A stretch of DNA of 64,000 nt, from the IMG/VR virus record IMGVR_UViG_3300021197_001653, positions 1 through 64,000 of that record; one strand, 5' to 3'. The notes under the pieces were generated by a model, which had not been told where the DNA came from, searched no databases, and worked only from the letters and a program-made list of their open reading frames with translations. Below, piece by piece: positions 9,467 to 33,058 of the stretch; the stretch's first letter is position 1; each line of letters opens with the position of its first letter. A program made the position numbers and the translations under genes. The DNA comes from a virus.

Positions 9467-9734
9467 ATACGGTGATGTTTATAATACTATAGAGAATGAA
9501 GATGGGGAAATGGAAGAGGTTTTAATAAGGGGTGATTATACAATGCCTATTATATTAAACCCTTATAAAATAGAAAGTATAGAACCTTACATAAGCATTA
9601 ATTGTAAACAGTTTAAAAACGTATCTATCATAACATATGACTCAGGTAAACAGTTTAAAGTAGTAGGTAACTATAAAGCTTTAAATGAATATAAAAGCAG
9701 TAATCAAAGAACAGTAATAGGATATGGGAGATAA
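9453..9734 (+). CDS. 93-residue beta-rich protein, unknown
   Basis: A small protein with segments typical of a beta sandwich or barrel. The C-terminal half (NPYKIESIEPYISINCKQFK then a strand and turn) is of the type seen in phage proteins with a small SH3-like or single-stranded-DNA-binding fold, but I cannot confirm this. It overlaps both neighbours. Confidence 0.55.
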   Translation: MKVIRYGDVYNTIENEDGEMEEVLIRGDYTMPIILNPYKIESIEPYISINCKQFKNVSIITYDSGKQFKVVGNYKALNEYKSSNQRTVIGYGR

Positions 9735-10386
9735 ACCTAATAAGGATAAGAGAAAATTAAAAACTGAACCACGATTAAAAGTTCAGTTAAATAATGAGCA
9801 AAAAGAAGTAGTTAAAAAATTCTATGAATATGACGTAAACTTTGTATTAGGGGATTTTGGAGCAGGTAAATCATTAGTAGCAGTATATACAGCTATATCA
9901 GCTTTTAGAAAGAAACAATTTAATAAAATATGGATTACTAGACCCATGATCAAAAATAATCTAGCCGCGTTACCAGGAACAATGGATGAAAAAATGTTTC
10001 CTTATGTATTTCCTATACTACAGAATTTAAATGTATGTCAAAGCGCTGAGGTAACAACTAGAATGCAAGATAGAAAAGATCTTGAAGTAATGCCAATTGA
10101 GGTAGCTAAAGGTATTACTTTTATGGATTCAGTAGTTATTGTTGATGAATTTCAAGATATGAATTATCAAGACTTCAGGACAATCATAACACGATTAGGT
10201 AAAGATAGTAAGATTATCTTTTGTGGTAGTGAACAACAAATTGATAAGAACTTCACCAAGTCTTCATGCATTAATGAAGCGATGAAGCTTAGAGATTCTG
10301 GGTTAGTGGGGTTTACTGAACTAACCTCCAACCACAGAAATCCTGCATTAACAAGTATAATAAAGTATATGGAAGATGAAAAATAG
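9724..10386 (+). CDS. PhoH-like P-loop ATPase
   Basis: A 220-residue protein matching the PhoH family in size and motif order. Walker A is G43-DFGAGK-S50, followed by the family's ITRPMI strand. Walker B is VIVDEFQD with D141-E142. A conserved ITRLG-KIIFCGSEQQID segment follows, then the family C-terminus with SNHRNP. PhoH-like proteins are ATPases linked to RNA metabolism and are common in phages; the precise role is not settled. It lies at the end of the early or middle gene run, with its last codons overlapping the next gene. Confidence 0.9.
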   Translation: MGDKPNKDKRKLKTEPRLKVQLNNEQKEVVKKFYEYDVNFVLGDFGAGKSLVAVYTAISAFRKKQFNKIWITRPMIKNNLAALPGTMDEKMFPYVFPILQNLNVCQSAEVTTRMQDRKDLEVMPIEVAKGITFMDSVVIVDEFQDMNYQDFRTIITRLGKDSKIIFCGSEQQIDKNFTKSSCINEAMKLRDSGLVGFTELTSNHRNPALTSIIKYMEDEK

Positions 10387-10756: not shown

Positions 10757-11042
10757 AACAGATGAAATTAAAGTAAAACAGCTAATTCATAAATTAGGGT
10801 TAAAATATAATTTAAGGGATGAAGAGATAAAAGAAATAGTTAATTCACCTTATTTATTTGCAGCAGAAAGGTTCAGAGAGATGGATTTGAAAAAAGTAAC
10901 AACAGAGGAAGAACTGAGTAGTATGAAGACAAACTTTTTATTTAAAGGGTTTGGTAGATTGTTAGTAAGTTTTGCTCTAATTAATAGACGTAATAAACAA
11001 AAATTAAATAGTTTTAAATTAAATAATAAATGGAAGAAATAG
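10749..11042 (+). CDS. Conserved small Bacteroidota-phage protein, unknown
   Basis: A 97-residue protein with the recognisable pattern KLGLKYNLRDEEIKEIVNSP, then FAAERFREMDL, then FLFKGFGRLLV. Small proteins of this type recur in crAss-like and other Bacteroidota phages; no activity is known to me. It ends with a basic tail and overlaps the next gene by 13 bases. Confidence 0.65.
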   Translation: MDKTDEIKVKQLIHKLGLKYNLRDEEIKEIVNSPYLFAAERFREMDLKKVTTEEELSSMKTNFLFKGFGRLLVSFALINRRNKQKLNSFKLNNKWKK

Positions 11043-11398
11043 CAAATTTAACACACGAAGATGTAATGGAAATTTTAAAAAATGATTTCCCAGTACAACC
11101 ATTAAAACACAGAGCCATTATAACAGTAAATGTTAATGATGCAAATGATATAATGTTTGAGGATAATAGTTTCTCAGAATCACAATATATAATGGCAGTA
11201 GGAGATTATTTTAAAAATGTTAAACCTGGTACAAAGGTTCTTTTAGATATAGAAAAGATGATGGAATTTGTGGAAGCAGATGAGAACACACATGAAAGAC
11301 GAGGTCATATTAAGATTAAACCAATTCAGGTAAATGGTAGAATGTATGCTATTATTACAGATAGAGTAATAGAAGCAATTGATAATAGAGTAGAATAA
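11030..11398 (+). CDS. GroES-like co-chaperonin
   Basis: A 122-residue protein that can be lined up with GroES by eye. PLKHRAIITVN matches the N-terminal PLHDRVIVKR strand. NDIMFEDNSFSE stands where the GroES mobile loop with its hydrophobic IVL tripeptide lies. QYIMAVGDYFKNVKPGTKVLL matches the AVG-x-VKVGD-V core, and GRMYAIITDRVIEAI matches the final strand Y-I-DILAI. It is ~25 residues longer than bacterial GroES. A GroEL-like gene lies 0.8 kb downstream, so a phage-encoded pair is likely. The probable client is the capsid protein, as with the T4 gp31 co-chaperonin; that part is inference. Confidence 0.75.
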   Translation: MEEIANLTHEDVMEILKNDFPVQPLKHRAIITVNVNDANDIMFEDNSFSESQYIMAVGDYFKNVKPGTKVLLDIEKMMEFVEADENTHERRGHIKIKPIQVNGRMYAIITDRVIEAIDNRVE

Positions 11399-11421
11399 TA
11401 AATAAAAAATAAGGAGAAGTA

Positions 11422-11595
11422 ATGAATGATCAAGTAAAACAAGCATTAGCTATTTTAGAACAAGTAGTAGATGCATCAACAGCACAAGGGGTATTTAAGA
11501 AAGCATCTGAAGCTGCTATGGTAGCGCAAGCATTAGTTATTGTATCAAATGCACTAACACCAATTGAAAAAGAAATTAAAAAAGTTAAAAAATAA
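11422..11595 (+). CDS. 57-residue helical protein between co-chaperonin and terminase region
   Basis: Short ORF with a strong Shine-Dalgarno-like AAGGAGAAG six bases before ATG 11422, unusual here because most genes in this window lack one. The product is one or two amphipathic helices rich in Ala, Val and Gln, ending KKVKK. It lies three bases before the next gene. The helical, alanine-rich character would suit a small scaffolding or subunit role, but none is recognised. Confidence 0.65.
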   Translation: MNDQVKQALAILEQVVDASTAQGVFKKASEAAMVAQALVIVSNALTPIEKEIKKVKK

Positions 11596-11598
11596 CAT

Positions 11599-12168
11599 AT
11601 GAAGTTATTTGAAATGAAAGATTGGGTTTTAACAGTCTCCGAGGAAGCTTGGGGGCTAGAACCTTTTCATAGGATATTAAAAAGGGATAAGACCAAACAT
11701 AAAACAAAGGCATTAGCTGAGATGTTATTTGTTTGGTATTATTGTGATATAAAGTCAAATTATTTAGTAATGGCAAAACAAGTCAGAATAGATAATTTAA
11801 AGAAAGATATTAATGGGTTATCTCCTACATGGAAGCCTGATGAAATTATATGGGATGCTATAAAGTTTTATTCTCAATTTAAAACTATTACTCAAAAATT
11901 ATACGAAGATGCTTTAACATCAGCTACAGCTATAGGTGATTACTTAAGTAATACAAAAGCATTATTAGCAGAAAGAGATGCACAAGATAAACCAGTATAT
12001 GATATATCTAAGATTAGTGCGTCAGTACAAAGGATGCCTAAATTAATGCAGGATTTAAAAGTGGCTTATAAAGAAGTTGTTAAAGAACAAGATGATAACT
12101 CTGGTAAAAAGAAAGGTAGTAAAACATTTAATACATTTGAACAAGGATTAGATTTTGAAAATGAATAA
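11599..12168 (+). CDS. Conserved protein upstream of terminase, small-terminase candidate by position
   Basis: A 189-residue mostly helical protein. The N-terminal half has a compact helical pattern with many aromatics (EAWGLEPFHRILKRDK, EMLFVWYYCD). The C-terminal third is charged and ends with a Lys/Gly-rich linker and an acidic tail. The position before GroEL and the large terminase fits a small terminase subunit or another packaging factor, but no small-terminase motif is certain. Its end overlaps the start of the GroEL-like gene by eight bases. Confidence 0.6.
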   Translation: MKLFEMKDWVLTVSEEAWGLEPFHRILKRDKTKHKTKALAEMLFVWYYCDIKSNYLVMAKQVRIDNLKKDINGLSPTWKPDEIIWDAIKFYSQFKTITQKLYEDALTSATAIGDYLSNTKALLAERDAQDKPVYDISKISASVQRMPKLMQDLKVAYKEVVKEQDDNSGKKKGSKTFNTFEQGLDFENE

Positions 12169-13582
12169 AGAAATTATAAAAGGAGAAGAACTTCAAGCAG
12201 CATTAAGAGCTGGTGTTGATACACTAGCATCTGCTGTACTTGAAACAATGGGACCTAATGGTAGTACAGTAGGTATTGTAGATGAAACAGGTAAACCTTA
12301 TATAACTAAAGATGGGGTTACAGTTGCTAGACATGTTGATTTGGATAACCCAATAGAACAATATGGAGCTGAATTATTAAAGGAAGTAGCCAATAGAACA
12401 GTTGAGCAAGCAGGAGATGGTACAACAACATCTATTTGTTTAGCTCAATCTTTTATTAACGTAGGTTTTGATTTACTTAATAATGGTATACCATATAAAA
12501 GTATTAAGAGTGCTTTAGAGAAAATAGAAAGTGAAGTTATAGCAGAATTGAAGAAGACTTCTATTAAATTAGAACCAAAGAATATTGTTAATGTGGCAAC
12601 AGTGTCAGCTAATAATGATTCTGTTATAGGAAAGTTAATCCAGACAGCTTATAATCATTCTACTATAGTTAAAGTTGAGGAATCTGATTCATTAGAGGAT
12701 ACTTTAATCACTATAGATGGTATGAACTTAAGGTCTAGTTATTTTAGTAAAGCTTATATTAATAATGCTAAGAAACAATCTATTGAATATGGTACGTCAA
12801 AACTTATTATAGTACAAGGGAAAGTAACTGACATTAAAGATATAAAAGATTTATTAAAAGGTGAACAAGATATGCCAATTATTATAATGGCAGATCATTT
12901 CTCTGATAGTGTTAACTCGATTATTAAAGAGAATTATAATAAAGGCTTTCTTAAGATAGGATTAGTTAAGTCACCTGGTTTTGCTACTCATAGAAAAGAT
13001 CTTATTAATGATATTATATATTATACATCAGCTAATAGAGTTGGAACAACTAATAAATATGTAGGAATTATAGATAAAATTTATGCAGATAAAGATACTA
13101 TAGTTATAACACAAGAAGATAAGGTTAGGGACCCATCAAGATTAAATGATTTAAAAGAAGCTTTTGATAGTGAACCTAAAGGAGGAGCTAAAGATCTCTT
13201 AAAAGACAGAATAGATACCTTAAATGGGACAGTTTCAATAATTAAAGTAGGAGGTAACTCTGAAATTGAAATGAAAGAGCGTAAAGATAGAATAGATGAT
13301 GCTGTATTAGCTGTTAAATGTGCACTAGAAGAAGGTATTATAGAAGGAGGTGGTCACGCCTTAAGAAATATAGCTAAAAATATGTTATACACTAAAACAC
13401 CTATCATTGAGTTGATTGGTTGTTTACATGAGCCTTACTATATAATTGACGTTAAGAAGATAAGCAACAAGATTGTTGATCCAGTAAAGGTTACTAGATG
13501 TGCATTACAGAATGCTATATCAGTATCCAAAACTATATTATCAACTACAGTTATTGTTAGAGGAAGAAATATATGGAATTAA
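12161..13582 (+). CDS. GroEL-like chaperonin (Hsp60)
   Basis: A 473-residue group I chaperonin homologue. I start it at ATG 12161; a TTG two codons earlier is less likely. Seen by eye: the equatorial domain with MGPNGSTVGIVD and YITKDGVTVARHVDL, then the ATP-site AGDGTTTS with D86 (E. coli D87). Near the C-terminus are EIEMKERKDRIDDAV with D380 (equivalent of catalytic D398) and ALEEGIIEGGGHAL. The C-terminal Gly-Gly-Met tail is absent and the apical region is shorter, so the total is ~75 residues below bacterial GroEL. It should form an ATP-driven folding chamber with the GroES-like protein. It overlaps the terminase gene by ten bases, placing it inside the packaging/capsid operon. Confidence 0.92.
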   Translation: MNKEIIKGEELQAALRAGVDTLASAVLETMGPNGSTVGIVDETGKPYITKDGVTVARHVDLDNPIEQYGAELLKEVANRTVEQAGDGTTTSICLAQSFINVGFDLLNNGIPYKSIKSALEKIESEVIAELKKTSIKLEPKNIVNVATVSANNDSVIGKLIQTAYNHSTIVKVEESDSLEDTLITIDGMNLRSSYFSKAYINNAKKQSIEYGTSKLIIVQGKVTDIKDIKDLLKGEQDMPIIIMADHFSDSVNSIIKENYNKGFLKIGLVKSPGFATHRKDLINDIIYYTSANRVGTTNKYVGIIDKIYADKDTIVITQEDKVRDPSRLNDLKEAFDSEPKGGAKDLLKDRIDTLNGTVSIIKVGGNSEIEMKERKDRIDDAVLAVKCALEEGIIEGGGHALRNIAKNMLYTKTPIIELIGCLHEPYYIIDVKKISNKIVDPVKVTRCALQNAISVSKTILSTTVIVRGRNIWN

Positions 13583-15810
13583 AACTAAATAAATATCAAA
13601 CAGTTCTTTCCAAGGAACTAAAAGAGAAATTACCAAAAGAAGTTTGGGATAATATACTTGAATATATATCTCAAGTAAAATTTATACGAAATATTATAGC
13701 ACCTGCATCAGAAAGGGGTTTAATTGCTGATAGAGCGATAATGACTTATGAAAACGATGAGGGTGAACTAATTGAGTATGAAGATGGTAGAAGAATAATA
13801 GATTTAACTAATCCTCATATATTAGAGGATATGGATTATTTTAGAGAAAGAGCTATCTTTTTTGAGGAGAATGGTAGATATACAACTCTTACTCCTAATC
13901 CCAATCCTAAATCTGACTTTGCTCAATTCTGGAAAGATGAATTACATAGATGGAAATACGGGATGGTTCGCCCTGATGGTGAATGGATACCTGGTGAACT
14001 ATACTTTTATTGGAATTATACATCTATACCAATTACAGAAACAGATTCAAACACTAAGAGTAAGAAGAGAGTGGAAAGGGTTAAGAGATTCCCTAAACCT
14101 TGGTTAGGTGATTACTTATTTCATCACTATGTACATGCAGCTAAAGAGAATGGACAACATGGTAAACTATTAAAGACAAGGGGTGTAGGATTTAGCTTAA
14201 AGGCTGCATCATGGGGTCCACGTAATATGTATGTATTACCAGGGACACAAAACCCTAACTTCTACTTAGCATCTGAGAAATCCTTTTTATCTGGTGATAA
14301 AGGTTTATGGGGTAAGATATTAGATAATCTGGATTGGATTGCTACACACACTCCATTACCTAGAATGAGAATAGTAGATGGTAAAAGGTCTATGGAAGTT
14401 CAGTTAGGTTATGAAGATGAGTTTGGTATTAGGAAAGGTTTATTATCTTCCTGTTTTGCTATATCATTAAAAGATAACCCAGATAAAGCAAGGGGTGTAA
14501 GGGGCCCATTCATTGATTATGAAGAAGATGGATTATTCCCTAACTTAGAAAAAGCATGGAACGTAAATAGAAAAGCTGTGGAAGATGGGGGTGTTGCTTC
14601 TGGATTCATGCTTGCAGGTGGTACAGGTGGTACACAAGGCGCTTCATTTGCAGGATCAGAGAAACTATTTTATAGACCTGATGCATATAATATCTTTGGT
14701 ATTCCAAATGTATTTGATAGAAATAATAACGGTGATACAGAGTGTGGGTTCTTTTGGGGTGCGTATATGAATAGAAACCTTTGTTATAATGAAGATGTTG
14801 GTGAACCAGATATTATTAAAGCTTTAATTGAAATATGCATGGACAGGCATAAAGTAAAATATAGCTCTTCTGATGCTAATGCTATTACACAAAAGAAAGC
14901 TGAGGAACCTATTACACCTCAAGAAGCTATTATGCGTACAGAAGGAACTGTATTCCCTGTAGCTGATTTAAAAGAATATTTAGAAACAATATCAGTTAAA
15001 AGAGATGCTTTCTTAGCTGAGAATTATGTAGGTCATTTGGTATACAATGCAACTGGTGAGGTAGTATGGAAACCATTAGGTGATAAATTCCCGCTAAGAG
15101 CATATGATGTTGCAGGTAGTGATAGAGCGGGGTGTCTTGAAATATTTGAAATGCCTAGAAAGAATAGTAATGGTGAAGTACAACGTGGTAGATATATTGC
15201 AGGAATTGACCCTATTGATTCAGATACAGGGCAATCACTATTTAGTATGTTAATTATGGATACTTTTACAGATAGAATTGTAGCAGAGTATTCAGGTAGA
15301 CCTAGAAAGGCTGTAGAAGCATATGATATAGCTTTAAAATCTTTAAAGTTTTATAATGCTGAAGCTAATTATGAGAGTAACTTAAAAGGTTTATTTAGTT
15401 ACTTTGATCAAAAAAATGCTTTACATTATTTAGCTGATGTACCACAAATACTTAAAGATATGGATATGGTTAAACAAACTAATCTATATGGTAATAAAGC
15501 TAAAGGTACGCATGCAAATAAAACTATTAACTCATGGGGTAGATTATTACAAGCGGATTGGCAAGTAACTAAAGCTTATGGTGATGATGAAGATACACGT
15601 TTGAATTTACATAGGTTAAGGGGTCTAGCTTATATTGAAGAATGTATAAAATGGAATGCTGATGGTAACTTTGATAGGGTTTCAGCAGGTATAATGTTAT
15701 TTATACTAAGAGAAGATAGAGCTAAAAGAACTAATTCAATTAAGAATAGAGATGTTAATAAATTTAAAAGTTTATCTAATGATCCATTCTTTAATAAAAA
15801 TTTTAAATAG
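13573..15810 (+). CDS. terL: Terminase large subunit (packaging ATPase-nuclease)
   Basis: A 745-residue protein of the crAss-like TerL type. The ATPase domain shows a Walker-A-like TRGVGFSLK (T202-K210) and a Walker B segment GPFIDYEED with D315, E317 and E318. The nuclease domain shows YIAGIDPIDSDTG with D546 as first metal-binding Asp. It packages phage DNA into the procapsid through the portal and cuts it. The gene follows the chaperonin with overlap and is separated from the portal by ~115 bases that carry a new promoter. Confidence 0.93.
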   Translation: MELKLNKYQTVLSKELKEKLPKEVWDNILEYISQVKFIRNIIAPASERGLIADRAIMTYENDEGELIEYEDGRRIIDLTNPHILEDMDYFRERAIFFEENGRYTTLTPNPNPKSDFAQFWKDELHRWKYGMVRPDGEWIPGELYFYWNYTSIPITETDSNTKSKKRVERVKRFPKPWLGDYLFHHYVHAAKENGQHGKLLKTRGVGFSLKAASWGPRNMYVLPGTQNPNFYLASEKSFLSGDKGLWGKILDNLDWIATHTPLPRMRIVDGKRSMEVQLGYEDEFGIRKGLLSSCFAISLKDNPDKARGVRGPFIDYEEDGLFPNLEKAWNVNRKAVEDGGVASGFMLAGGTGGTQGASFAGSEKLFYRPDAYNIFGIPNVFDRNNNGDTECGFFWGAYMNRNLCYNEDVGEPDIIKALIEICMDRHKVKYSSSDANAITQKKAEEPITPQEAIMRTEGTVFPVADLKEYLETISVKRDAFLAENYVGHLVYNATGEVVWKPLGDKFPLRAYDVAGSDRAGCLEIFEMPRKNSNGEVQRGRYIAGIDPIDSDTGQSLFSMLIMDTFTDRIVAEYSGRPRKAVEAYDIALKSLKFYNAEANYESNLKGLFSYFDQKNALHYLADVPQILKDMDMVKQTNLYGNKAKGTHANKTINSWGRLLQADWQVTKAYGDDEDTRLNLHRLRGLAYIEECIKWNADGNFDRVSAGIMLFILREDRAKRTNSIKNRDVNKFKSLSNDPFFNKNFK

Positions 15811-15925: not shown

Positions 15926-18307
15926 ATGAGTAGAACACATACATTTAACATGCCTATTCAAAGGCTTTCTCTTTCTAGAAAAACAAAAGAATGGAGAAAA
16001 GATAATGTGGATGCTGGTGATAAGCATTCATTTTATAACAATGAATCAGTAAGGCAAACCCTTAGAAATAAAATTATAAATTATAAGTTATATAATGGTA
16101 TAGTTGATATTAAAGATTTAGTAAGTGTTACTAATCCTTATAATCAAGATGCTAGTTTTATACCTGACAATATACCCCATAATCCAATTCTTGTACCAAA
16201 GATAGACTTACTATTAGGTGAAGAGATTAAAAGGAGGTTTGATTGGAGAGTAGTTGTCCAGAATAGTGATGCTATTTCTAAGAAGGAAGAAGATAAAAAA
16301 GCAGAATTACAACGTAGGGTTACAGAATTTATTCAAGCTAATTACGCTGAAGAAGAGCAGGATCAAAGATTTCAAGAGTTAGAGGACTTTATGAAGTATG
16401 ATTGGCAAGACTTGAGAGAAAAAATGGCTAGTCAGATACTTCGTTACTATTATCAATATGAAGAATTTGATAGAAAGTTTAATGAAGGGTTTAAAGATGC
16501 TCTATTAGTTGCAGAAGAAATATATAACATTGATATCGTTCATGATGAACCTATTCTTGAAAAACTAAACCCCTTAAAAGTACATGCTATAAGATCTGGT
16601 AAATCATCTATGATAGAAGATTCATCTATCATTATAATAGAGGATCACTGGAGTCCGGGTAGAGTTATAGATCATTACCATGATGATTTAAAACCTGCGG
16701 ATATAGATTATATAACTGAATACAATAGTAGCTCTAGAAGTGGTAGTTATTCAGATGATCAAAATAATCATGCTCTTCTTAGGGATAACTTAGGTAGTGA
16801 AGGTGTTGATGATTTCTTAAACATTGCAGAGATTAATGGTCATTACTTTAGTTCTAATTATACAGATGAGAATGGTAATATTAGAGTACTTAGAGTATAC
16901 TGGAGATCTATTAAAAAAATAAAGAAAATTAAATATTACACCACAGAAGGTGAAGTTGAATATAAGATAATGTCTGAAGAGTACATCCCAAACAAATTAA
17001 TGGGTGAAGAAGAGACTGTCTTATGGGTTAATGAATGGTGGGAAGGAACTAAAATTGGAAAAGACATATATGTTAATATGCGTCCTAAAAAAGTTCAATA
17101 TAATAAATTAGAGAATCCATCTAAGTGTGGTCCCGGTATTGTTGGTCAAGTATATAATACTAACCAAGGTAGAGCTGTATCATTAGTTGATAGAATGAAA
17201 AACTATCAATACATGTACGATGCTATATGGGATAGACTTAATAAAGCTATAGCAAGTAACTATGGTAAAATAATGGAACTGGATTTAGCCAAAGTACCTG
17301 AAGGATGGGAAATGGAGAAATGGTTGCATTTTGCTGTAGTTAATAAAATAGCTGTAGTTGATTCTTTTAAAGAAGGTAATAAAGGTGCTGCTACTGGAAA
17401 ACTAGCTGGTGGTATGAACACTCAAGGTGGTAGAGTAATGGATATGGAAACAGGTAATTATATCCAACAACATATTCAATTATTAGAATTCATTAAGAAT
17501 GAAATGTCTGAGATAGCAGGTGTATCTAAACAAAGAGAAGGGGCTATTCATCAAAATGAAACTGCACAAGGTGTTGAGAGATCTGTAAATCAATCTAGTC
17601 ACATTACAGAATTTTGGTTTGATACTCATGAAAGAGTTAAACTTAGAGTGATGACAACTTTCTTAGAAGCAGCTAAGATTGCTTTACAAGGTAAAAGTAA
17701 AAAAGTACAATATATATTAGATGATCAGACTATCCAACTATTAAACATGGATGGTGAAGATTTATCTGAAGCAGATTATGGTATTTTAATGACCTCTTCA
17801 TCTAAAACACAAGAGTTAGAACAAATGTTAAAAACAAATGCACAAGCTTTTGTTCAGAATGGTGGTAGTTTGTCTACAATCATAGATATTTATTTTAGCC
17901 CTAGTATTTCAGATATGAGACGTAAGTTAGAGTTAGCTGAAGAAAAGATGAATGAGAGAGCAGCTAAACAAGCTGAGGATCAGAATAAATTAACTCAACA
18001 AGCACAAGATCAACAATTACAGTTAGAGCAAGAAAAAATGCAGTTAGATAATCTTAAGAATGAAAGGGATAATGAAACTGCAAGATATATTGCTGAGTTA
18101 AAAGAGCAAGGGGAAAGTGATACAATTGATGATGGTGTGGAGAACCCATTAGATAGAGAGAAGTTAAATTTAGATGTTAAAAAACAAAGAGATGATTTAA
18201 TGACTAAAATTAAAGCTCTGGATAATGATATGGTAAAACATCATGATAAAATGACACGTGAAGATAAGAAAATAGCTGTTTCAAAAAGTAAACCAACATC
18301 AAAATAG
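15926..18307 (+). CDS. Portal protein
   Basis: A 793-residue protein in the portal position between terminase and capsid genes, with the size and layout of crAss-like portals. The middle part (about residues 380-560) contains the characteristic VQYNKLENPSKCGPGIVGQ and a helical segment with SVNQSSHITEFWFD. The C-terminal ~120 residues (from about 670) form a long charged coiled coil rich in Gln, Glu and Lys, ending KSKPTSK. Twelve copies would form the ring through which DNA enters and leaves. Assignment rests on context and general resemblance. Confidence 0.88.
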   Translation: MSRTHTFNMPIQRLSLSRKTKEWRKDNVDAGDKHSFYNNESVRQTLRNKIINYKLYNGIVDIKDLVSVTNPYNQDASFIPDNIPHNPILVPKIDLLLGEEIKRRFDWRVVVQNSDAISKKEEDKKAELQRRVTEFIQANYAEEEQDQRFQELEDFMKYDWQDLREKMASQILRYYYQYEEFDRKFNEGFKDALLVAEEIYNIDIVHDEPILEKLNPLKVHAIRSGKSSMIEDSSIIIIEDHWSPGRVIDHYHDDLKPADIDYITEYNSSSRSGSYSDDQNNHALLRDNLGSEGVDDFLNIAEINGHYFSSNYTDENGNIRVLRVYWRSIKKIKKIKYYTTEGEVEYKIMSEEYIPNKLMGEEETVLWVNEWWEGTKIGKDIYVNMRPKKVQYNKLENPSKCGPGIVGQVYNTNQGRAVSLVDRMKNYQYMYDAIWDRLNKAIASNYGKIMELDLAKVPEGWEMEKWLHFAVVNKIAVVDSFKEGNKGAATGKLAGGMNTQGGRVMDMETGNYIQQHIQLLEFIKNEMSEIAGVSKQREGAIHQNETAQGVERSVNQSSHITEFWFDTHERVKLRVMTTFLEAAKIALQGKSKKVQYILDDQTIQLLNMDGEDLSEADYGILMTSSSKTQELEQMLKTNAQAFVQNGGSLSTIIDIYFSPSISDMRRKLELAEEKMNERAAKQAEDQNKLTQQAQDQQLQLEQEKMQLDNLKNERDNETARYIAELKEQGESDTIDDGVENPLDREKLNLDVKKQRDDLMTKIKALDNDMVKHHDKMTREDKKIAVSKSKPTSK

Positions 18308-19563: not shown

Positions 19564-21072
19564 ATGAGTTTAGGTAAATTTGTCATGACGAAAGGTAAAT
19601 CTTGGTCAGGACTAACATTAAAGAACCACATTGGAGCAATCTTTGGAAGTAGACCCCAATTGGTATCACCACTTACCACTGTACTTTTACAAAATTCAGG
19701 GATGAAAAATCTGGACACTACTTTATCGTTGTTTCCAGAAAAAACAATAGAAACATCTGATGATTTTATTTGGAAAGTAGTAGGTAGTGATGAAAGGAAT
19801 ATTCCTTTAGTAGAAGCAAGAGCAGCTGGTTCTGTAATAACAGGTGGAGACACTGGGGTTGGTGCAGCGCGAGGTATAATTGAACTTGTATTCGCTGAGA
19901 AATACTTTACAAAAGTGCATGTAATTGCTGGTAATAAACCAGACTTATATCAATTTAGAATTTTAAGTGAACCAACTGAAGAAGGTGGAAACTATGTTTA
20001 CGAAGTAGAGTTATTTGGTGGGCAAGAAACATTAGCTGGTGTACCTGGTACAGAGTTAGTTGTTGGAAATAGATTCAGTATGGAATCTGCTTATGTAGAA
20101 GATGAACTATCTACTTCGGGTGCTGGAATTCAATTCACATCTCCATATACTATGAGAAACAGTGTATCTACACTTCGTTTTGAACATAAGGTATCTGGTG
20201 CTATGATTGACTGTAAAGTTAAACCAGTTTATTTTGCTGGGATTGAAACAAGAGATGCTAATAGCGGTAAAGTTCATAAGTCTGTTACATGGATGCAAGA
20301 AGTATACTGGCAATTTGAAAAATCAATTTCTCGTCTTAAGGCAAGAACATTAATGTTTGGTAAAACAAATAGAGATGAAAATGGTAGATTCCTTAATAAA
20401 GGTGATTCTAACATTGAAATCAAAGCTGGTTCTGGAATTAGAGAACAAATGGAAGTGTCTAACACTACTACTTATAATAAGTTCTCAATTAGATTACTAG
20501 AAGATTTGTTATCTGAATTATCTGAAGGTAAATTAGACTTTGGTGAACGTAAATTTATGTTACGTACTGGAGAAAGAGGTGCTATTCAGTTTAATAAAGC
20601 AGTTGCAAAAGAAGCGTCTGGATGGGCAGCATTAGGATTTGATAACACTGGTACACATGGTGTACAGAAAGTACAATCTAAATTCCATAATAATGCATAT
20701 TCTGCTGGATTCCAATTCACAGAATGGAGAGCTCCTAATAACATTCATGTAATGTTAGAGGTTGATCCTATGTATGATGATAAAGTAAGAAATAAAGTAT
20801 TGCATCCAGATGGAGGTGTTGCTGAATCTTACAGATATGATATTTTATATATCGGTTCTATGGAAGAGCCTAATATCCAAAAAATAAAAGTTCGTGGTGA
20901 AGACGAAATGAGAGGATATAAAGGTGGTATTAGAAATCCATTTACAGGACGTAGAGGTGGAACAATGGAACATATGGAAGACTCTGCAATTATGAGTGCT
21001 ATGTGTTGGACAGGTTCAATGGTGAAAGATCCATCAAGAACTGCAACATTGAAACCATCATTATTAAGTTAA
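19564..21072 (+). CDS. Major capsid protein (HK97 fold, crAss type)
   Basis: A 502-residue protein whose length, beta-rich sequence and neighbours match crAss-like capsid proteins. It begins MSLGKFVMTKGKSWSGLTL and carries typical segments such as RFEHKVSG, VTWMQEVYWQFE and FGERKFMLRTGERGA. Glycine-rich turns and few Cys are as expected. A strong terminator-like hairpin follows within 25 bases, consistent with a high-level transcript. It is the likely main client of the phage chaperonin pair. Confidence 0.9.
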   Translation: MSLGKFVMTKGKSWSGLTLKNHIGAIFGSRPQLVSPLTTVLLQNSGMKNLDTTLSLFPEKTIETSDDFIWKVVGSDERNIPLVEARAAGSVITGGDTGVGAARGIIELVFAEKYFTKVHVIAGNKPDLYQFRILSEPTEEGGNYVYEVELFGGQETLAGVPGTELVVGNRFSMESAYVEDELSTSGAGIQFTSPYTMRNSVSTLRFEHKVSGAMIDCKVKPVYFAGIETRDANSGKVHKSVTWMQEVYWQFEKSISRLKARTLMFGKTNRDENGRFLNKGDSNIEIKAGSGIREQMEVSNTTTYNKFSIRLLEDLLSELSEGKLDFGERKFMLRTGERGAIQFNKAVAKEASGWAALGFDNTGTHGVQKVQSKFHNNAYSAGFQFTEWRAPNNIHVMLEVDPMYDDKVRNKVLHPDGGVAESYRYDILYIGSMEEPNIQKIKVRGEDEMRGYKGGIRNPFTGRRGGTMEHMEDSAIMSAMCWTGSMVKDPSRTATLKPSLLS

Positions 21073-27010: not shown

Positions 27011-30000
27011 ATGGCGCAATTAAATTTACCTTTTGGTATATATAGATCAACTAGAGGAGACTTAGATGAAAAATTTAGAGTAGTAGATAATACTGCTAGG
27101 GATTTGTTGATTACATTAGATTTAGTAGATAAGGGTCATATAATATATAATGAGTCTACATCTACACATGAATACTTAAAAGAGTATCCTACATTTGGTT
27201 CTTTAACAGGTGTATTATGGGAAGCTGCTGGTACAAGTCAAGTTAAAATATCATCTAATGATACTACGCAAGGTTTTTTAGAAGATAAAATAACTGCTGG
27301 GGATGGTATAATTAAAACCATTAATAATGAAGGTGGTAATGAAAATGTTAATCTAGAAATAGGTCCTCATTATTTATCATTAGCTTCAACAGGTATAAAT
27401 ACTGGTGGAGGGTTGAGTATTGGTGTTACTACTGGTACTTTTGATATAACAGAAGGAGAAGGTTTTTTTATAGATGCTAATGCAGATTTTAATAATATTG
27501 AATTGAATTCAGTAACAATTGCAGCTAGAACTAATATAGCTATTACTAATATTCTAACAAATCCTGTATCATATATATCTGTAGATAAAAATGATAATAT
27601 AATACAATCAACAACATTTCCTACAGCTATAGAAAGAAGGGCTGCTATATTCTTAGGTGTAGTGGTTCATTCAGATAATGTAACTGTAAATGCTACTAAT
27701 AATTTACCTATTATAGCTAATAACCCAATGTCCCAGATGTATGATAGATGGATGTCACAAGGGGATTATTTTAATATAAAAGGTAATTTATTTTCATTTA
27801 ATGGAAATAATTTAAATATAAATAAATCAATAGGGGATGTTTTTAAAACTAGTATTAATTATGATACAGATAAAAATAATCCTCATATAAAAACATTTAG
27901 TGCAGATAATGCATTAACATTTAGATATAGGCTTCAAAATTCAAATGAAGATGCTGATACAATTGTAATAGATCCTAATAATTATGATGTAGGCGGTATT
28001 AAAACAACAGTGCCATCAAATAAATATACTATACAAAGAATAGATATATTTCCATCAGGGCTTGTTAGAATACAATATGGTCAAAATTTATATGATAGCT
28101 TAGAAGATGCTGAAGCAAACGTTGCTTTAGAACCTTTTGTAATTGAGCCTAATATTAATGAAAATGGCTTACTTAGATGTCATTTAATTATTGAAGAAGG
28201 TTCTACTGATTTATCAGACCCATTACGTGTTAAATTTATTGAAGCTTCTAGAAGTGGTGTAGCTAAAGAAACTAATGTTGGTGGAGCTATATTTAGAACA
28301 CAACTTTTAAATGATGCTTCTACTGGGGTTAGAGAAGGTGGTGTATTGTCTGTAAATGGAGGTAACCCTTCTTTATTAGATATAACTTCTGGTACAGGTA
28401 GAGTAATAGATAATACAACAGATTCAAACAACCCTACTTTAAAAGAAGTTAGATGGAGTTCTTTTACAGCAGAAGCTCTTCCTAATATTGCCACTAATGT
28501 AATTACTTATATTGCTATAGATGAAAATGACACTTTAATTAAACAAAGTTCTGATTTTACACCACAAGAATATAGAGAATTAGTTGTTTTAGGTAGAGTT
28601 GGGCATATTGATAATGTAAATATAACTAGTATAACTAATTTATCAGTACCTTTTGTAGATCCATTACTTACTACTGTAGATTTATCTAACGCTGTAGGTA
28701 ATATTAATACAAGTGGTAATATTTTTACAGCCCAAGGAGGAAATTTAATTTTAAATAAATCTGTAGGTACTCAATTTAGATTAGGTTCTAATAAACATAT
28801 TGATGGTAAAAATCCCCATTCATCGACACAAGCTTCTTTAACAAGTGTTACTTTTGTACCAGTATATAGAGACGGCTCTGGAGGTGTTAATATTGAGGCA
28901 CCAACAACCTTAATTGATCCAGATCAATGGGATGATGGAAGTGGTATATTACAAACTGTACCTAATAATAAATTTACAGCACAAAGAATTGTACATTTTT
29001 CTTCTAATGTTGTAGTTATTGCATACGGGCAAACAATTTATAATAATATTGAAGAAGCTATTGCTGGGGTATCAGCAGATCCTTTTGAAACACCAGGGGG
29101 TGTAACTGGGGGTATAACTAGAGCTTCTATTGTTATTAAAAAAGGAACAAGTGATTTATCTAATTCCACAACTACTAAAATAATACAAGGTAGTAAGTTT
29201 GGAGAATTTACTGGTGGTGGTGGTGGAGGTGGAACTACTTCTAATCTTCAAACTATTTATAATAATTCAACACCTAATCCTGAAATACAAACTAATGCAA
29301 CTAACGGGTCATTTACTTTAAGAGTTGGATCAGGTTCGGATTTAGATAATGTTTTTGAATCTCAAAACACAGCAGGAACACCTACATTTCAAATAAATGG
29401 TGATGGTGATGTTATTATTAGTGGGGATTTAACCATACAGGGTGATAGTACTACAGTTAATTCAGAAATAACAACATCTGATGCAGTATTAGATATGAAT
29501 TTTGGAGAAACTGGACCTGGTGTTACATTAGGTTATTCTGGTTTAAATATTGAAAGAGGTACTGTTAATAACTTCTGGTTTGGTTTTGATGAAGTAAGAG
29601 ATAAGTTTACAGTTGGTACTATAACAGCATTAAATCAAGTTCAAATTGCAACAACGCAAGTTTTAGCAACAAGAGCTGATTCATTAACTGACCAATCTAT
29701 TGTTAAATGGGATAATTCATTAAATCAATTTATAGATAGTGGAAAATTAATAAGTGATTTGGATAATGTTGCATATACTAATATCAACAACAATTTCTCA
29801 ATTACTCAAACATTTGGGGGAATAGTAACACTAGGTTCTGGAGCTAATGGAGGTACTTTAAACTGGAGTGGAACAGACTTTTGGGTTCGCTCAAAAACTG
29901 GTAAAGGACTTATATTAGGAGCTAACGAATCTCAGCATTACACTATTGACGTAAATGGTCACAACACTTGGGTTGGTAATGGTCAATTTGGTGGAACAGT

Positions 30001-33000
30001 TAAAATAGATACAACATCTGGGTTACCTTTTCACTCTAAGACAAATCAAGCAAATGCACAATTTAGAATAGAAACTACACATCCAAGCGGTATTCCTAAT
30101 TTAGAGCTTAAAGGTTTAAGTAGCGCAACTATAAGATATATAGATGAAACAGACACAATTCAAGCAAGAATTGACTTATCTGATTCTGGATTCAATTTCT
30201 TTGATGGAGCGAGTTCAATATATAGTATTGTAAATGGACACAATACATGGACAGGTGGAGGTCAATTTGGTGGGTCATTATTAGTAAATTCTGGAATAAC
30301 AAATACGGCATTAACTTTAATAAGTACTGATACTGGAACTACTTTAAGGTTACAGGACTCAATAGGTAATGGAGGTTTGGAATATAATTCTAATACACTG
30401 TATATAGATTCAGATAAAGATGAAACTGTAGCTAATTCTCAAATTAAAATGAGAGTAGATGGTTCAACTAAATTTACTCTTGATTCAAATGGAGTTATTT
30501 TTGGAGGGATATTATACACTAAAGGAGGTTTCAGTGAGCCTAATATAGAGACAGGGTATCAGATAAAATTCTCTGATAATGGCGGAACTCATAATGATGT
30601 AGGAATAGGTTTAGCGGGTACATTAGGTAGCGAGCAAATATGGTACAACACAACTCCGACAGGGAAACATAGATTTATGTTTGGTACTGCTGGTGAAAAA
30701 ATGTCAATCAACAGTACAGGATTAACTGTAGTAGATGGAGCTACTTTTGGAGGTCAAACTAACTATACTAAACCTGCGGTATTAAATACAGATGTTGTAA
30801 TGTCTCAGTGGGGGGATTCAACCAATGGTATTCAAATGGTTCAGCATTGGCATGCAGGTGGTATTGATTGGAAATTAAAGAAAGGTAATGGAATTGAATT
30901 TGTAACGTTTAATCAAAATGGCTCAACTTATTTTGGAGGTAATATTTCAATTGCATCAACAAAAGAGATTAGATTTTTAGGGAATGGATTATTAACTACT
31001 AGTAACAACGTGTTTGATATTCATGCAGACGATAATGCAAACGGTATCGGTCAAATTAGATTAAGAACTAGTGGAGGAGATTCAGCCCACTTTTTATCTA
31101 CAGGTATAAATTTCTATAAAGAATTAACATCTACATTAGGTGCTACTTTTGGAGGTCAGACTATACATAATGGAGGTATTCAATTGAATGGTCAATCATT
31201 GAGATTTGACGAGTCTGGTATTAGGTCGTGGTTAATACAAGTTAGTGGAGGTAATCTACTTTATAATTCTGGTGATGGATTAGGTAAATCAATTTTCAAT
31301 CATGAAGTTCAAGCAGATAAGTTTATTGGTGATGGTTCTCAGTTAACTAATATAGCATCTGGAGCATTGCCAAGTAATGTAGCTTATACTAATGTCAATA
31401 ACAACTTCTCAGTAGACCAAGTGTTTCAAGCAGCAATATCTACAAAAAGTGGATTTGCAGTACTTAATAAAGCAGAAACAGGATATATAACTTGGGCTAC
31501 AAGAAATACAACTGGAAGTGAGGCTGTTTATGATTTAACTAATATGGGTTCAGCTACTTTTAAGGGTATAATAAAGTCTGAATCAACAAGTCCTCAAGTG
31601 CGAGTTAATACTTCTTCGGGGACTGGAACAGGTTATTACATATTTGGAGATGTTTTAGATGATGATGTAGCGTGGATTTCATATCAACATTCAGACAACT
31701 CTATGAGATTTAGAGTTAATGCTAATGAAAAAATGTCAATCAACAGTACAGGATTAACTGTAGTAGATGGAGCTACTTTTGGTGGAAATACCGATATTAA
31801 CGGTAGATTATCTATAAATAAGGATTTAGCATTATCTAGTTCTAGGATAGACTTTTACGACAATAATACAGCAATGGCGTATCTAGGTTACGGGACACAA
31901 GCTAATGGTTCATTATCTTGGGTTAGAGACGGTAGTGAACTATTTAGATCAAGCACATCTGTATTTAACATAAATACAGCATTAAATGTTGGAGGTGTCG
32001 CTACATTAGCAAATGCTTTAAGTTTTGAAACTGGGAATACAGATTTCCAAATATATAATGTAGGTACTAACTTATGGATTAGGGATAATACAAATACCCA
32101 AGATTTATTTAGATTTAGTAATACTGGGGTTCAGAGCTATAAGGACTTAACAGCTCCTAATTTTATAGGTAATTGGAATGGAAATACAGAAGCTCAGTTT
32201 GATGCTAAGTATGATTCAAGTAATTTTATAGCTGGTATAGATTATAATCCTACAATAGGTACTAATACAGATATATTACCAACTGGAACAGAGATTATAA
32301 GTTCAATAATTTTGACAAATGGGGTAGTTACTGGTTCATCTAAATTTAATTTAACTTTAGCGCATTTAGGATATACTGGTGATACAAATGCTAATTATAT
32401 AACTAATAATAATCAATTAATAAACGGAGCTGGATACACATCTAATATAGGTACAATAACAAGTATAGCTACAGGAACTGGTTTAGATGGGGGTACTGTT
32501 ACATCAGGAGGTATAACTATATCTTTAGATTTAAACGAATTAGGTAACGGCGGTACATTATTAGGCACTGATTATTTAGTTTCTGTAAACGGTACAGTGT
32601 CTCAAAAACAACTAATCTCATCAATTCCTTTATCAGTATTTAATAACGATGCTGGGTTTATCACATCAGTAAGTTCTGATTATGTTAAGAAAAATGAAAT
32701 TACTGATTATACAAAACAACATTACTTTACCCCTCAAACATTAACTTACGGGGCTAATATAACGTGGGATTTAGATAATAAACAAAAAGCTAAAGTATTA
32801 TTAACAGGTAATGCTACAATAGATAACCCTGGAAGTGGGGATATTAAACCAGGCGCCACTTATACATTAATAGTTGAACAAGATATAACAGGTGGTAGGA
32901 CTTTAACTTGGGGTAGTTATTTTGATTTTGGAAATGATGGAACACCTACTTTAAGTATATCAGGAAATGAGTATGATATCCTTGTTTTTGAAGGTAGTCA

Positions 33001-33058
33001 TTACACTAATGTTTTATGTTTCATAGGAATTAAAAAAGGATTTACATCAGCAGTATAA
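27011..33058 (+). CDS. Giant tail-fibre protein with internal duplications
   Basis: A 2015-residue protein. The N-terminus (about 1-120) is a particle-anchoring region. Residues ~132-415 and ~442-733 are two diverged copies of one module. Shared landmarks are GGxLSxG, AITNILTNPVSYISVDxND, a shared NKSxG segment, and VPxNKxTxQRI followed by YGQ. A seven-glycine hinge (G735-G741) follows, then a long shaft. The shaft has repeated GHNTWxGxGQFGG, GATFGGQ and AYTNxNNNFS elements and one exact 57-base DNA repeat. The C-terminal domain ends in a strand-rich GRTLTWGSYFDF segment typical of fibre tips. It is probably the main receptor-binding fibre. It overlaps the FN3 gene by one base. Confidence 0.85.
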   Translation: MAQLNLPFGIYRSTRGDLDEKFRVVDNTARDLLITLDLVDKGHIIYNESTSTHEYLKEYPTFGSLTGVLWEAAGTSQVKISSNDTTQGFLEDKITAGDGIIKTINNEGGNENVNLEIGPHYLSLASTGINTGGGLSIGVTTGTFDITEGEGFFIDANADFNNIELNSVTIAARTNIAITNILTNPVSYISVDKNDNIIQSTTFPTAIERRAAIFLGVVVHSDNVTVNATNNLPIIANNPMSQMYDRWMSQGDYFNIKGNLFSFNGNNLNINKSIGDVFKTSINYDTDKNNPHIKTFSADNALTFRYRLQNSNEDADTIVIDPNNYDVGGIKTTVPSNKYTIQRIDIFPSGLVRIQYGQNLYDSLEDAEANVALEPFVIEPNINENGLLRCHLIIEEGSTDLSDPLRVKFIEASRSGVAKETNVGGAIFRTQLLNDASTGVREGGVLSVNGGNPSLLDITSGTGRVIDNTTDSNNPTLKEVRWSSFTAEALPNIATNVITYIAIDENDTLIKQSSDFTPQEYRELVVLGRVGHIDNVNITSITNLSVPFVDPLLTTVDLSNAVGNINTSGNIFTAQGGNLILNKSVGTQFRLGSNKHIDGKNPHSSTQASLTSVTFVPVYRDGSGGVNIEAPTTLIDPDQWDDGSGILQTVPNNKFTAQRIVHFSSNVVVIAYGQTIYNNIEEAIAGVSADPFETPGGVTGGITRASIVIKKGTSDLSNSTTTKIIQGSKFGEFTGGGGGGGTTSNLQTIYNNSTPNPEIQTNATNGSFTLRVGSGSDLDNVFESQNTAGTPTFQINGDGDVIISGDLTIQGDSTTVNSEITTSDAVLDMNFGETGPGVTLGYSGLNIERGTVNNFWFGFDEVRDKFTVGTITALNQVQIATTQVLATRADSLTDQSIVKWDNSLNQFIDSGKLISDLDNVAYTNINNNFSITQTFGGIVTLGSGANGGTLNWSGTDFWVRSKTGKGLILGANESQHYTIDVNGHNTWVGNGQFGGTVKIDTTSGLPFHSKTNQANAQFRIETTHPSGIPNLELKGLSSATIRYIDETDTIQARIDLSDSGFNFFDGASSIYSIVNGHNTWTGGGQFGGSLLVNSGITNTALTLISTDTGTTLRLQDSIGNGGLEYNSNTLYIDSDKDETVANSQIKMRVDGSTKFTLDSNGVIFGGILYTKGGFSEPNIETGYQIKFSDNGGTHNDVGIGLAGTLGSEQIWYNTTPTGKHRFMFGTAGEKMSINSTGLTVVDGATFGGQTNYTKPAVLNTDVVMSQWGDSTNGIQMVQHWHAGGIDWKLKKGNGIEFVTFNQNGSTYFGGNISIASTKEIRFLGNGLLTTSNNVFDIHADDNANGIGQIRLRTSGGDSAHFLSTGINFYKELTSTLGATFGGQTIHNGGIQLNGQSLRFDESGIRSWLIQVSGGNLLYNSGDGLGKSIFNHEVQADKFIGDGSQLTNIASGALPSNVAYTNVNNNFSVDQVFQAAISTKSGFAVLNKAETGYITWATRNTTGSEAVYDLTNMGSATFKGIIKSESTSPQVRVNTSSGTGTGYYIFGDVLDDDVAWISYQHSDNSMRFRVNANEKMSINSTGLTVVDGATFGGNTDINGRLSINKDLALSSSRIDFYDNNTAMAYLGYGTQANGSLSWVRDGSELFRSSTSVFNINTALNVGGVATLANALSFETGNTDFQIYNVGTNLWIRDNTNTQDLFRFSNTGVQSYKDLTAPNFIGNWNGNTEAQFDAKYDSSNFIAGIDYNPTIGTNTDILPTGTEIISSIILTNGVVTGSSKFNLTLAHLGYTGDTNANYITNNNQLINGAGYTSNIGTITSIATGTGLDGGTVTSGGITISLDLNELGNGGTLLGTDYLVSVNGTVSQKQLISSIPLSVFNNDAGFITSVSSDYVKKNEITDYTKQHYFTPQTLTYGANITWDLDNKQKAKVLLTGNATIDNPGSGDIKPGATYTLIVEQDITGGRTLTWGSYFDFGNDGTPTLSISGNEYDILVFEGSHYTNVLCFIGIKKGFTSAV
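30694..30750 (+). repeat. 57-base exact direct repeat, copy 1 (in fibre gene)
   Basis: Identical over 57 bases to 31726-31782, about 1 kb further along the fibre gene and in the same reading frame. It encodes EKMSINSTGLTVVDGATFG. Exact DNA identity indicates recent copying or gene conversion. Confidence 0.95.
31726..31782 (+). repeat. 57-base exact direct repeat, copy 2 (in fibre gene)
   Basis: Second copy of the repeat at 30694-30750. Recombination between copies would delete 1032 bases (344 codons) in frame and shorten the fibre shaft without breaking the gene. Confidence 0.95.

Follow-up and report, generated by a model that had tools for sequence, protein, structure and literature searches.

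The window analysed here, a stretch of 64,000 nucleotides, is part of a virus record of 104,434 bases (IMGVR_UViG_3300021197_001653). On its plus strand it carries a gene for a GroEL-type chaperonin and, ending 0.76 kb before the GroEL ATG, a gene for a 122-amino-acid (aa) protein, a candidate co-chaperonin of the GroES fold that we call the lid. Matches of the capsid (Pfam), portal and terminase (PHROGs) proteins showed that the window's phage is of the crAss type. The gene block starts with a PhoH-like gene and continues with genes for 126-aa and 97-aa proteins, the lid, a 57-aa open reading frame (ORF), a 189-aa gene, GroEL, terminase, portal and capsid, all on the same strand (Table 1). 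The original prediction, made from the DNA letters alone, had proposed a GroES-GroEL pair, about 0.8 kb apart, that runs on into terminase, portal and capsid; both ORFs, their spacing and the order of the genes agreed with it.

GroEL and its remodelling in the window's clade

Judged by its Cpn60 sequence family and its modelled three-domain fold, the GroEL gene product is a group I chaperonin. The ORF matched Pfam Cpn60_TCP1 above the cut-off (E = 8.6e-39), PHROG_5725 'chaperonin groEL' (2.9e-101) and 169 sequences of solved structures at E <= 0.001 (best 4.6e-75), while it missed the cut-off of the NCBIfam GroEL equivalog (305 vs 582 bits). The AlphaFold model was built from 47 aligned relatives with near copies excluded, namely 31 from the window's clade and 16 from other phages (drawn from 31 other phage loci). 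It had a mean predicted local distance difference test score (pLDDT) of 89.7 and matched a GroEL structure with Z = 38.6 over 470 residues. The proposed GroEL homologue was thus confirmed by family and by model. The listed ORF begins with TTG at 12155, and the ATG at 12161 is the likelier start.

The clade of the window was defined by the best 80 of 195 capsid matches (76-86% identity). Numbered from the ATG, the window's D86 and D380, which had been named as retained aspartates of the ATP site, align to D87 and D398 of E. coli GroEL. The E. coli residues D52, D87, G88, T89, T90, D398, G414 and D495 were kept in all 31 clade GroELs, and T91 was kept in 30 of them. Such invariance suggests that ATP turnover is apparently under selection. 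The GGM-repeat C-terminal tail, correctly said to be lacking, was absent from the window GroEL. Separately, we observed that a tryptophan near the C-terminus (13570-13585), shared with relatives, coincides with the ATGG at which the overlapping terminase gene begins; its conservation may therefore reflect the gene overlap and not GroEL function.

The largest change was seen in the equatorial domain. In E. coli GroEL the region of R452, E461, S463 and V464 joins the two rings; the laboratory single-ring variant SR1 has these four residues changed. In the clade GroELs this ring-ring contact segment was deleted, with gaps at E461 in 28, at S463 in 30 and at V464 in 30 of the 31 sequences. Positions 419-492 were represented by 37-63 residues in the clade, compared to 74 in E. 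coli and 66-81 in the 16 other phage GroELs. The same segment was also shortened in Cellulophaga phage phi14:2 (51) and in cr108_1 (42).

The hydrophobic apical groove (Y199, Y203, F204, L234, L237, L259, V263, V264) was partly lost in the clade. The position of V263 was occupied by E in 17, by K in 8, by R in 4, and by G and N in one each of the 31 clade GroELs, so that it was charged in 29, compared to I or V in 16/16 other phage GroELs. At V264 the clade GroELs mostly had T, S, D or E, compared to V or I in all 16 others. This second change was not confined to the clade, as phi14:2 has Q, cr108_1 has R and phi38:1 has E at this position; among the sequences compared, the charge at V263 was found in the clade only. 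Y203 was replaced by A (13) or H (12), and L234 was variable and often charged. Conversely, L237 (L 21, I 8), F204 (29/31) and L259 (L 20) were largely retained. The alignment of helix I, where these substitutions at 263 and 264 lie, was gap-free in nearly all rows. The partial loss of the groove lowers the claim to an orthodox GroEL, as far as sequences can tell, and not the claim to a GroEL-like way of working.

In a tree with nine Bacteroidales hosts and E. coli, the clade GroELs (31 rows) formed one group with support 100/100, apart from the hosts and from other phages; other crAss GroELs were on long branches. The changes described above were inherited in common and do not count as 31 independent events. 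Among these hosts, there was no support for GroEL having been captured recently from the Bacteroidales. In one sub-branch (loci L078 and L092, branch length 2.24) the apical domain was far more diverged, which indicates that the chaperonin is still changing there.

The lid: predicted fold, relatives and linkage to GroEL

The 122-aa protein had no Cpn10 match in Pfam. A Cpn10 match at E <= 10 was absent across the whole 104,434-base record, where no orthodox GroES was found elsewhere, and a sequence search of solved structures returned no Cpn10 for this protein. A peptide-pattern search of viral_contigs gave no relative of it, and a tblastn search gave four weak phage records, the two from phi14:2 being the only credible ones. 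Relatives were reached through capsid-anchored synteny and profiles.

The AlphaFold model of the lid, built with 28 relatives, had a pLDDT of 82.5 and a predicted template modelling score of 0.74. A Foldseek search with this model placed Cpn10 chains at all of ranks 1-30 (best E = 2.5e-4) and T4 gp31 at rank 32. In the VIA comparison, rows 1-15 were all Cpn10 or gp31 (Z from 8.8 to 6.6), followed at row 16 by 7ekq chain R, titled CrClpP-S2c (Z = 6.2), and then by oxidoreductases (Z at most 5.8). The structure-comparison tool cautions that chance may produce a Z of 7 to 8; the uniformity of the top rows makes a chance match unlikely. For this predicted model the TM-scores to Cpn10 were moderate, about 0.4-0.6. 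Among predicted viral structures, phi14:2 g096 was the top match (5.5e-9), and most of the matches after it were annotated as co-chaperonins of phages. We consider the 122-aa protein to be a probable, very diverged member of the GroES fold, identified by its modelled fold and its relatives. The structure check of the original prediction thus came out in its favour, with no match to the sequence family.

Between strands 28-32 and 51-57 the model had no regular structure, which is the region of the predicted mobile loop. In an alignment with the GroES of E. coli and of Bacteroidales, the hydrophobic loop triplet was IMF in the window compared to IVL in E. coli; the triplet was L-[VI]-L in many members and VRV, VDL or PDL in others. 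Loops of crAss001, cr85_1 and cr116_1 had a GG-hydrophobic pattern at the expected place, and, by eye, the hydrophobic ends of the loop were retained in most members. The idea that lid loops match their partner ring, being host-like where the phage has no GroEL, was found to be only suggestive, as the loops of the GroEL-bearing cr111_1 and cr108_1 (IID and LIQ) resemble the GroEL-less ones. A search by eye for charge complementarity between the loop and GroEL position 263 gave no consistent pattern.

The profile of the clade lids found homologues in crAss001 (gp15), cr85_1, cr126_1 and DAC15, with E-values from 1.7e-14 to 4.6e-18 and in the same gene block. Those of crAss001, cr85_1 and cr126_1 were deposited as 'putative 10kDa chaperonin'. 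The Pfam Cpn10 family touched only two of 24 records, crAss001 gp15 (3.9e-4) and cr108_1 (0.004), neither of which reached the curated cut-off (for gp15, 17.3 vs 21.1 bits). In a profile-profile comparison, the gp15 group, whose 11 sequences include four from the window's clade, matched 13 true Cpn10s over 84 columns with E = 5.6e-9 and a probability of 95.9; the clade lids alone matched them with E = 3.3e-6 and a probability of 87.9, where both E-values are for a single pair and not database-wide.

Among 19 named phage records, each examined whole, the lid was present in 13, i.e., all 12 that are Steigviridae by record name and Dulem virus 41. Six of these 13 were independent finds (cr106_1, cr112_1, cr111_1, cr128_1, cr116_1 and Kolpuevirus OQ198718), the other seven having already been in the query alignment. 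The lid was not found in Fpv20, in the four Suoliviridae (cr10_1, ProJPt-Bp1, cr50_1 and cr6_1) or in Dulem virus 42. GroEL was present in four records (phi14:2, cr108_1, Dulem 41 and cr111_1), all of which carry the lid. Such a distribution indicates that the lid is an old family gene and GroEL an accessory. Joint acquisition of the two genes was rejected for the family, since nine of the 13 lid carriers have no GroEL.

Within the window's clade the two genes were tightly linked. GroEL was present and adjoined the terminase in all 37 loci with at least 1.5 kb before the terminase, and the lid was present, in one block with GroEL, in all 30 loci with at least 3.3 kb there; an arrangement that recurs in 37/37 and 30/30 loci is more than chance. 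The junction with the terminase was compared in 32 rows, near copies among them and the two Steigviridae reference loci excluded. In 22 of these rows the first terminase ATG overlapped the end of GroEL by 10 bases, always at the same offset. Other overlaps were seen in seven rows, which gives 29/32 in all, and none in three rows, in one of which the frames were broken throughout. The proposal of a dedicated pair therefore stood in part: lid and GroEL were inherited together in the clade, and this did not hold for the nine lid carriers that have no GroEL.

For the 26 loci with all genes, the correlation of lid and GroEL distances minus the background of TerL (terminase large subunit), portal and 189-aa gene was 0.39 (p = 0.001), compared to 0.004 (p = 0.51) for the control pair of the 97-aa gene and GroEL. 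As evidence for joint working, this co-variation of sequences gives moderate support.

The gap between the lid and the 189-aa gene varied from none to 1.1 kb (loci L099, L105, L097 and L108), and some of the gaps hold ORFs of 120-167 aa; judged from these sequences, it is a small hotspot for gene insertion. The profile of the 189-aa protein also matched Fpv20 and cr10_1, a wider spread than that of the lid, and by its position this protein could be the small terminase subunit. In the clade set, 15 loci had the PhoH-like ATPase, compared to none of the scanned stretches of the named records. Further downstream, a late gene (27011-33058, plus strand) codes for 2,015 aa, with tail fibre family matches only around residues 125-418. 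This protein and other very long late gene products (up to 2,140 aa) are possible chaperonin clients.

Table 1. Coordinates of the features at the locus, with the evidence for each
Feature	Position	Strand	Evidence or remark
PhoH-like ATPase	9724-10386	+	8.6e-42; first gene of the conserved block
Two small genes before the lid, 126 and 97 aa	10376-11042	+	Homologues of crAss001 gp13 ('VpsT-like') and gp14 ('HU')
Lid, candidate GroES-fold co-chaperonin, 122 aa	11030-11398	+	AlphaFold, Foldseek, VIA, profile link; homologue of crAss001 gp15
Lid, predicted mobile loop (residues ~35-50) with IMF triplet	11132-11179	+	GroES alignment and model; boundaries approximate
Small conserved ORF, 57 aa	11422-11595	+	13 other loci have relatives of it in this gap
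Conserved crAss gene between lid and GroEL, 189 aa	11599-12168	+	Homologue of crAss001 gp16
GroEL, 473 aa from ATG	12161-13582	+	Pfam, PHROG, solved structures, AlphaFold, Z-score
GroEL apical helix I, residues 249-260	12905-12940	+	N252, K256, E257 at E. coli L259, V263, V264
GroEL equatorial domain, shortened second half	13361-13471	+	37 aa vs 74; ring-ring contact region in E. coli
Terminase large subunit (TerL)	13573-15810	+	PHROGs 6.6e-98; ATG inside the GroEL end, 10-base overlap
Portal protein	15926-18307	+	PHROG_6547 4.1e-164
crAss major capsid protein	19564-21072	+	Crass_capsid 1.4e-170

Relation to known phage systems

Among the closest known cases is phi14:2 (Steigviridae), a crAss-like phage which, like the window's, has a GroEL (g105) and a lid homologue (g096, deposited as hypothetical) before the terminase. 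Its GroEL (490 aa) is likewise shortened. In phi14:2, however, the GroEL gene precedes the lid homologue by 2.3 kb and does not adjoin the terminase, V263 is kept, V264 is Q, and the protein falls outside the clade's GroEL branch. The lid homologue of crAss001, gp15, lies in the same gene block, whereas the genome of crAss001 has no GroEL and gp15 has the loop GGIID and a longer C-terminal tail.

The T4 protein gp31 acts with the GroEL of the host, and T4 is not known to have a GroEL of its own. Like the lid, gp31 (PDB 1g31, 2cgt) is a phage-encoded diverged GroES fold; it was matched by the lid model with Z = 6.8-7.1, at 11-13% identity. The gp31-type feature, a lid in a phage that has no GroEL, holds for nine of the 13 lid carriers of the family; the window's phage has a GroEL. 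Cellulophaga phage phi38:1, which is not a crAss phage, also has GroEL and Cpn10 close together. Its Cpn10 is recognisable (6.5e-7), its GroEL has 521 aa, its genes lie among replication genes, and its family is Pervagoviridae. GroEL has been reported in marine genomes related to phi38:1 (PMC5332604), and the phi38:1 GroEL has been listed among phage proteins methylated in infection, as detected by mass spectrometry (PMC13288928).

Therefore, a part of what was observed is already in the records: the GroELs of phi14:2, cr108_1 and Dulem 41, the label of gp15, and the GroEL and GroES of phi38:1. The original prediction had called the pair unusual for a crAss-like phage and had raised its acquisition as a pair. 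Neither was supported: GroELs had already been deposited for the Steigviridae phi14:2 and cr108_1, phi38:1 has GroES and GroEL annotated close together, and nine of the 13 lid carriers have no GroEL. In the literature searched we found no paper that deals with the chaperonins of crAss phages, with their lid family or with the remodelling of GroEL, and a term search for 'chaperon' and 'GroE' had no hits in the main texts of PMC6235969 (crAss001), PMC7886860 (a survey of crAss-like phages) and PMC10172136 (the crAss001 structure). What is new here, at the level of the sequences, is the remodelling of GroEL, with an intact ATP site, a deleted ring-ring segment and a charge at V263 of the groove in 29/31.

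Interpretation and implications

We propose that the phage has a dedicated chaperonin of its own, in which a GroEL ring driven by ATP would be capped by the phage's own diverged GroES-fold lid. Both partners are encoded alongside the genes for packaging and capsid, and together they would fold late phage proteins. The lid would then cap the phage ring and not only that of the host, and the ring would be a single heptamer. Closed by the lid, this heptamer would hydrolyse ATP and then release the lid through a weak contact, the charged groove weakening lid binding so that the lid could leave without a second ring. From sequences and models, we give about even chances to this proposal of a GroEL that is naturally single-ringed, has a retuned contact with the lid and serves late phage proteins. 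Titles in the reference list of PMC9598537 suggest that a single-ring GroEL can be functional, with changes in GroES helping. The clients may be phage structural proteins; for the capsid or giant cargo proteins as clients, the position in the operon is the sole support, and relatives, crAss001 among them, have a homologous capsid gene yet no phage GroEL.

Several observations weigh against this proposal. The nine lid carriers that have no GroEL show that the lid does not need a phage ring and must act there with the host GroEL or otherwise. The groove that would receive the lid loop is no longer hydrophobic over its whole face, which could mean that no lid binds. The GroEL alignment is uncertain within the deleted region. 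The raw correlation of lid and portal (0.80) was higher than that of lid and GroEL (0.71), and the lid had a partial correlation of 0.21 (p = 0.008) with the 97-aa gene. Also, the known phage chaperonins EL, OBP gp246 and AR9 gp228, which are phage GroEL-like ATPases as in the window, are described as lid-independent. OBP and AR9 are reported to be single rings that need no lid (PMC9598537); EL is reported to have an occluded, remodelled groove and not to bind E. coli GroES (PMC7185714). These descriptions set them apart from the window, with its lid gene in the same block.

The main rival explanation is that the phage carries two separate tools, a lid that caps the host GroEL as T4 gp31 does and a phage GroEL that works lidless in the manner described for EL, OBP and AR9. 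We regard it as possible, if on the unlikely side. It would account for the GroEL-less lid carriers, for the distance of at least 2 kb between the two genes in phi14:2, cr108_1 and Dulem 41, and for the partly polar groove of the clade, and it has its precedents in EL, with its occluded groove, and in OBP and AR9, which are described as lid-free. On the other hand, lid and GroEL occur together in 30/30 clade loci and co-vary beyond background, the groove residues L237, F204 and L259 are mostly retained, and, by eye, most lid loops keep their hydrophobic ends.

Two further explanations concern one partner each. That the 122-aa protein is a GroES-like barrel serving as a small head or packaging accessory, with GroEL as the only chaperone and no co-chaperonin, appears improbable: Cpn10 and gp31 rank above all oxidoreductases structurally, the loop is at the right place with the GG-hydrophobic pattern in crAss001, cr85_1 and cr116_1, and the profile match to Cpn10 is full-length. 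Such a role would agree with the Cpn10 cut-off being unreached in every member, with a barrel that is common to oxidoreductases (Z up to 5.8), with the weak touch of several relatives to the ADH_N 'GroES-like' family instead, and with a gene that adjoins the packaging genes and persists where GroEL is absent. We consider it very improbable that the phage GroEL is a decoy or inhibitor of the host chaperonin or another host target instead of a folding machine. Its fast evolution and altered groove would fit that role, whereas the nucleotide residues are invariant in 31/31 clade GroELs and the gene is retained in all 37 testable loci.

A more specific form of the single-ring proposal is that the clade evolved a single-ring GroEL by deleting the interface and charging the groove for lid release, with the phage lid as matched partner, for the making of crAss virions, and that this ring was grafted onto a lid which the whole family used with the host GroEL. 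Drawn from sequence comparison, this fuller account is doubtful.

The crAss-like phages are very abundant gut viruses. In the Steigviridae the GroES-fold lid appears to be a common gene, carried also by the cultured crAss001 and DAC15, both of which have no phage GroEL, and one clade has joined this lid to a remodelled GroEL. If the lid does cap a single ring, the clade would hold a natural solution to the lid-release problem of the laboratory single-ring GroEL. It would be the natural counterpart of such laboratory variants and would bear on the question of why chaperonins have two rings.

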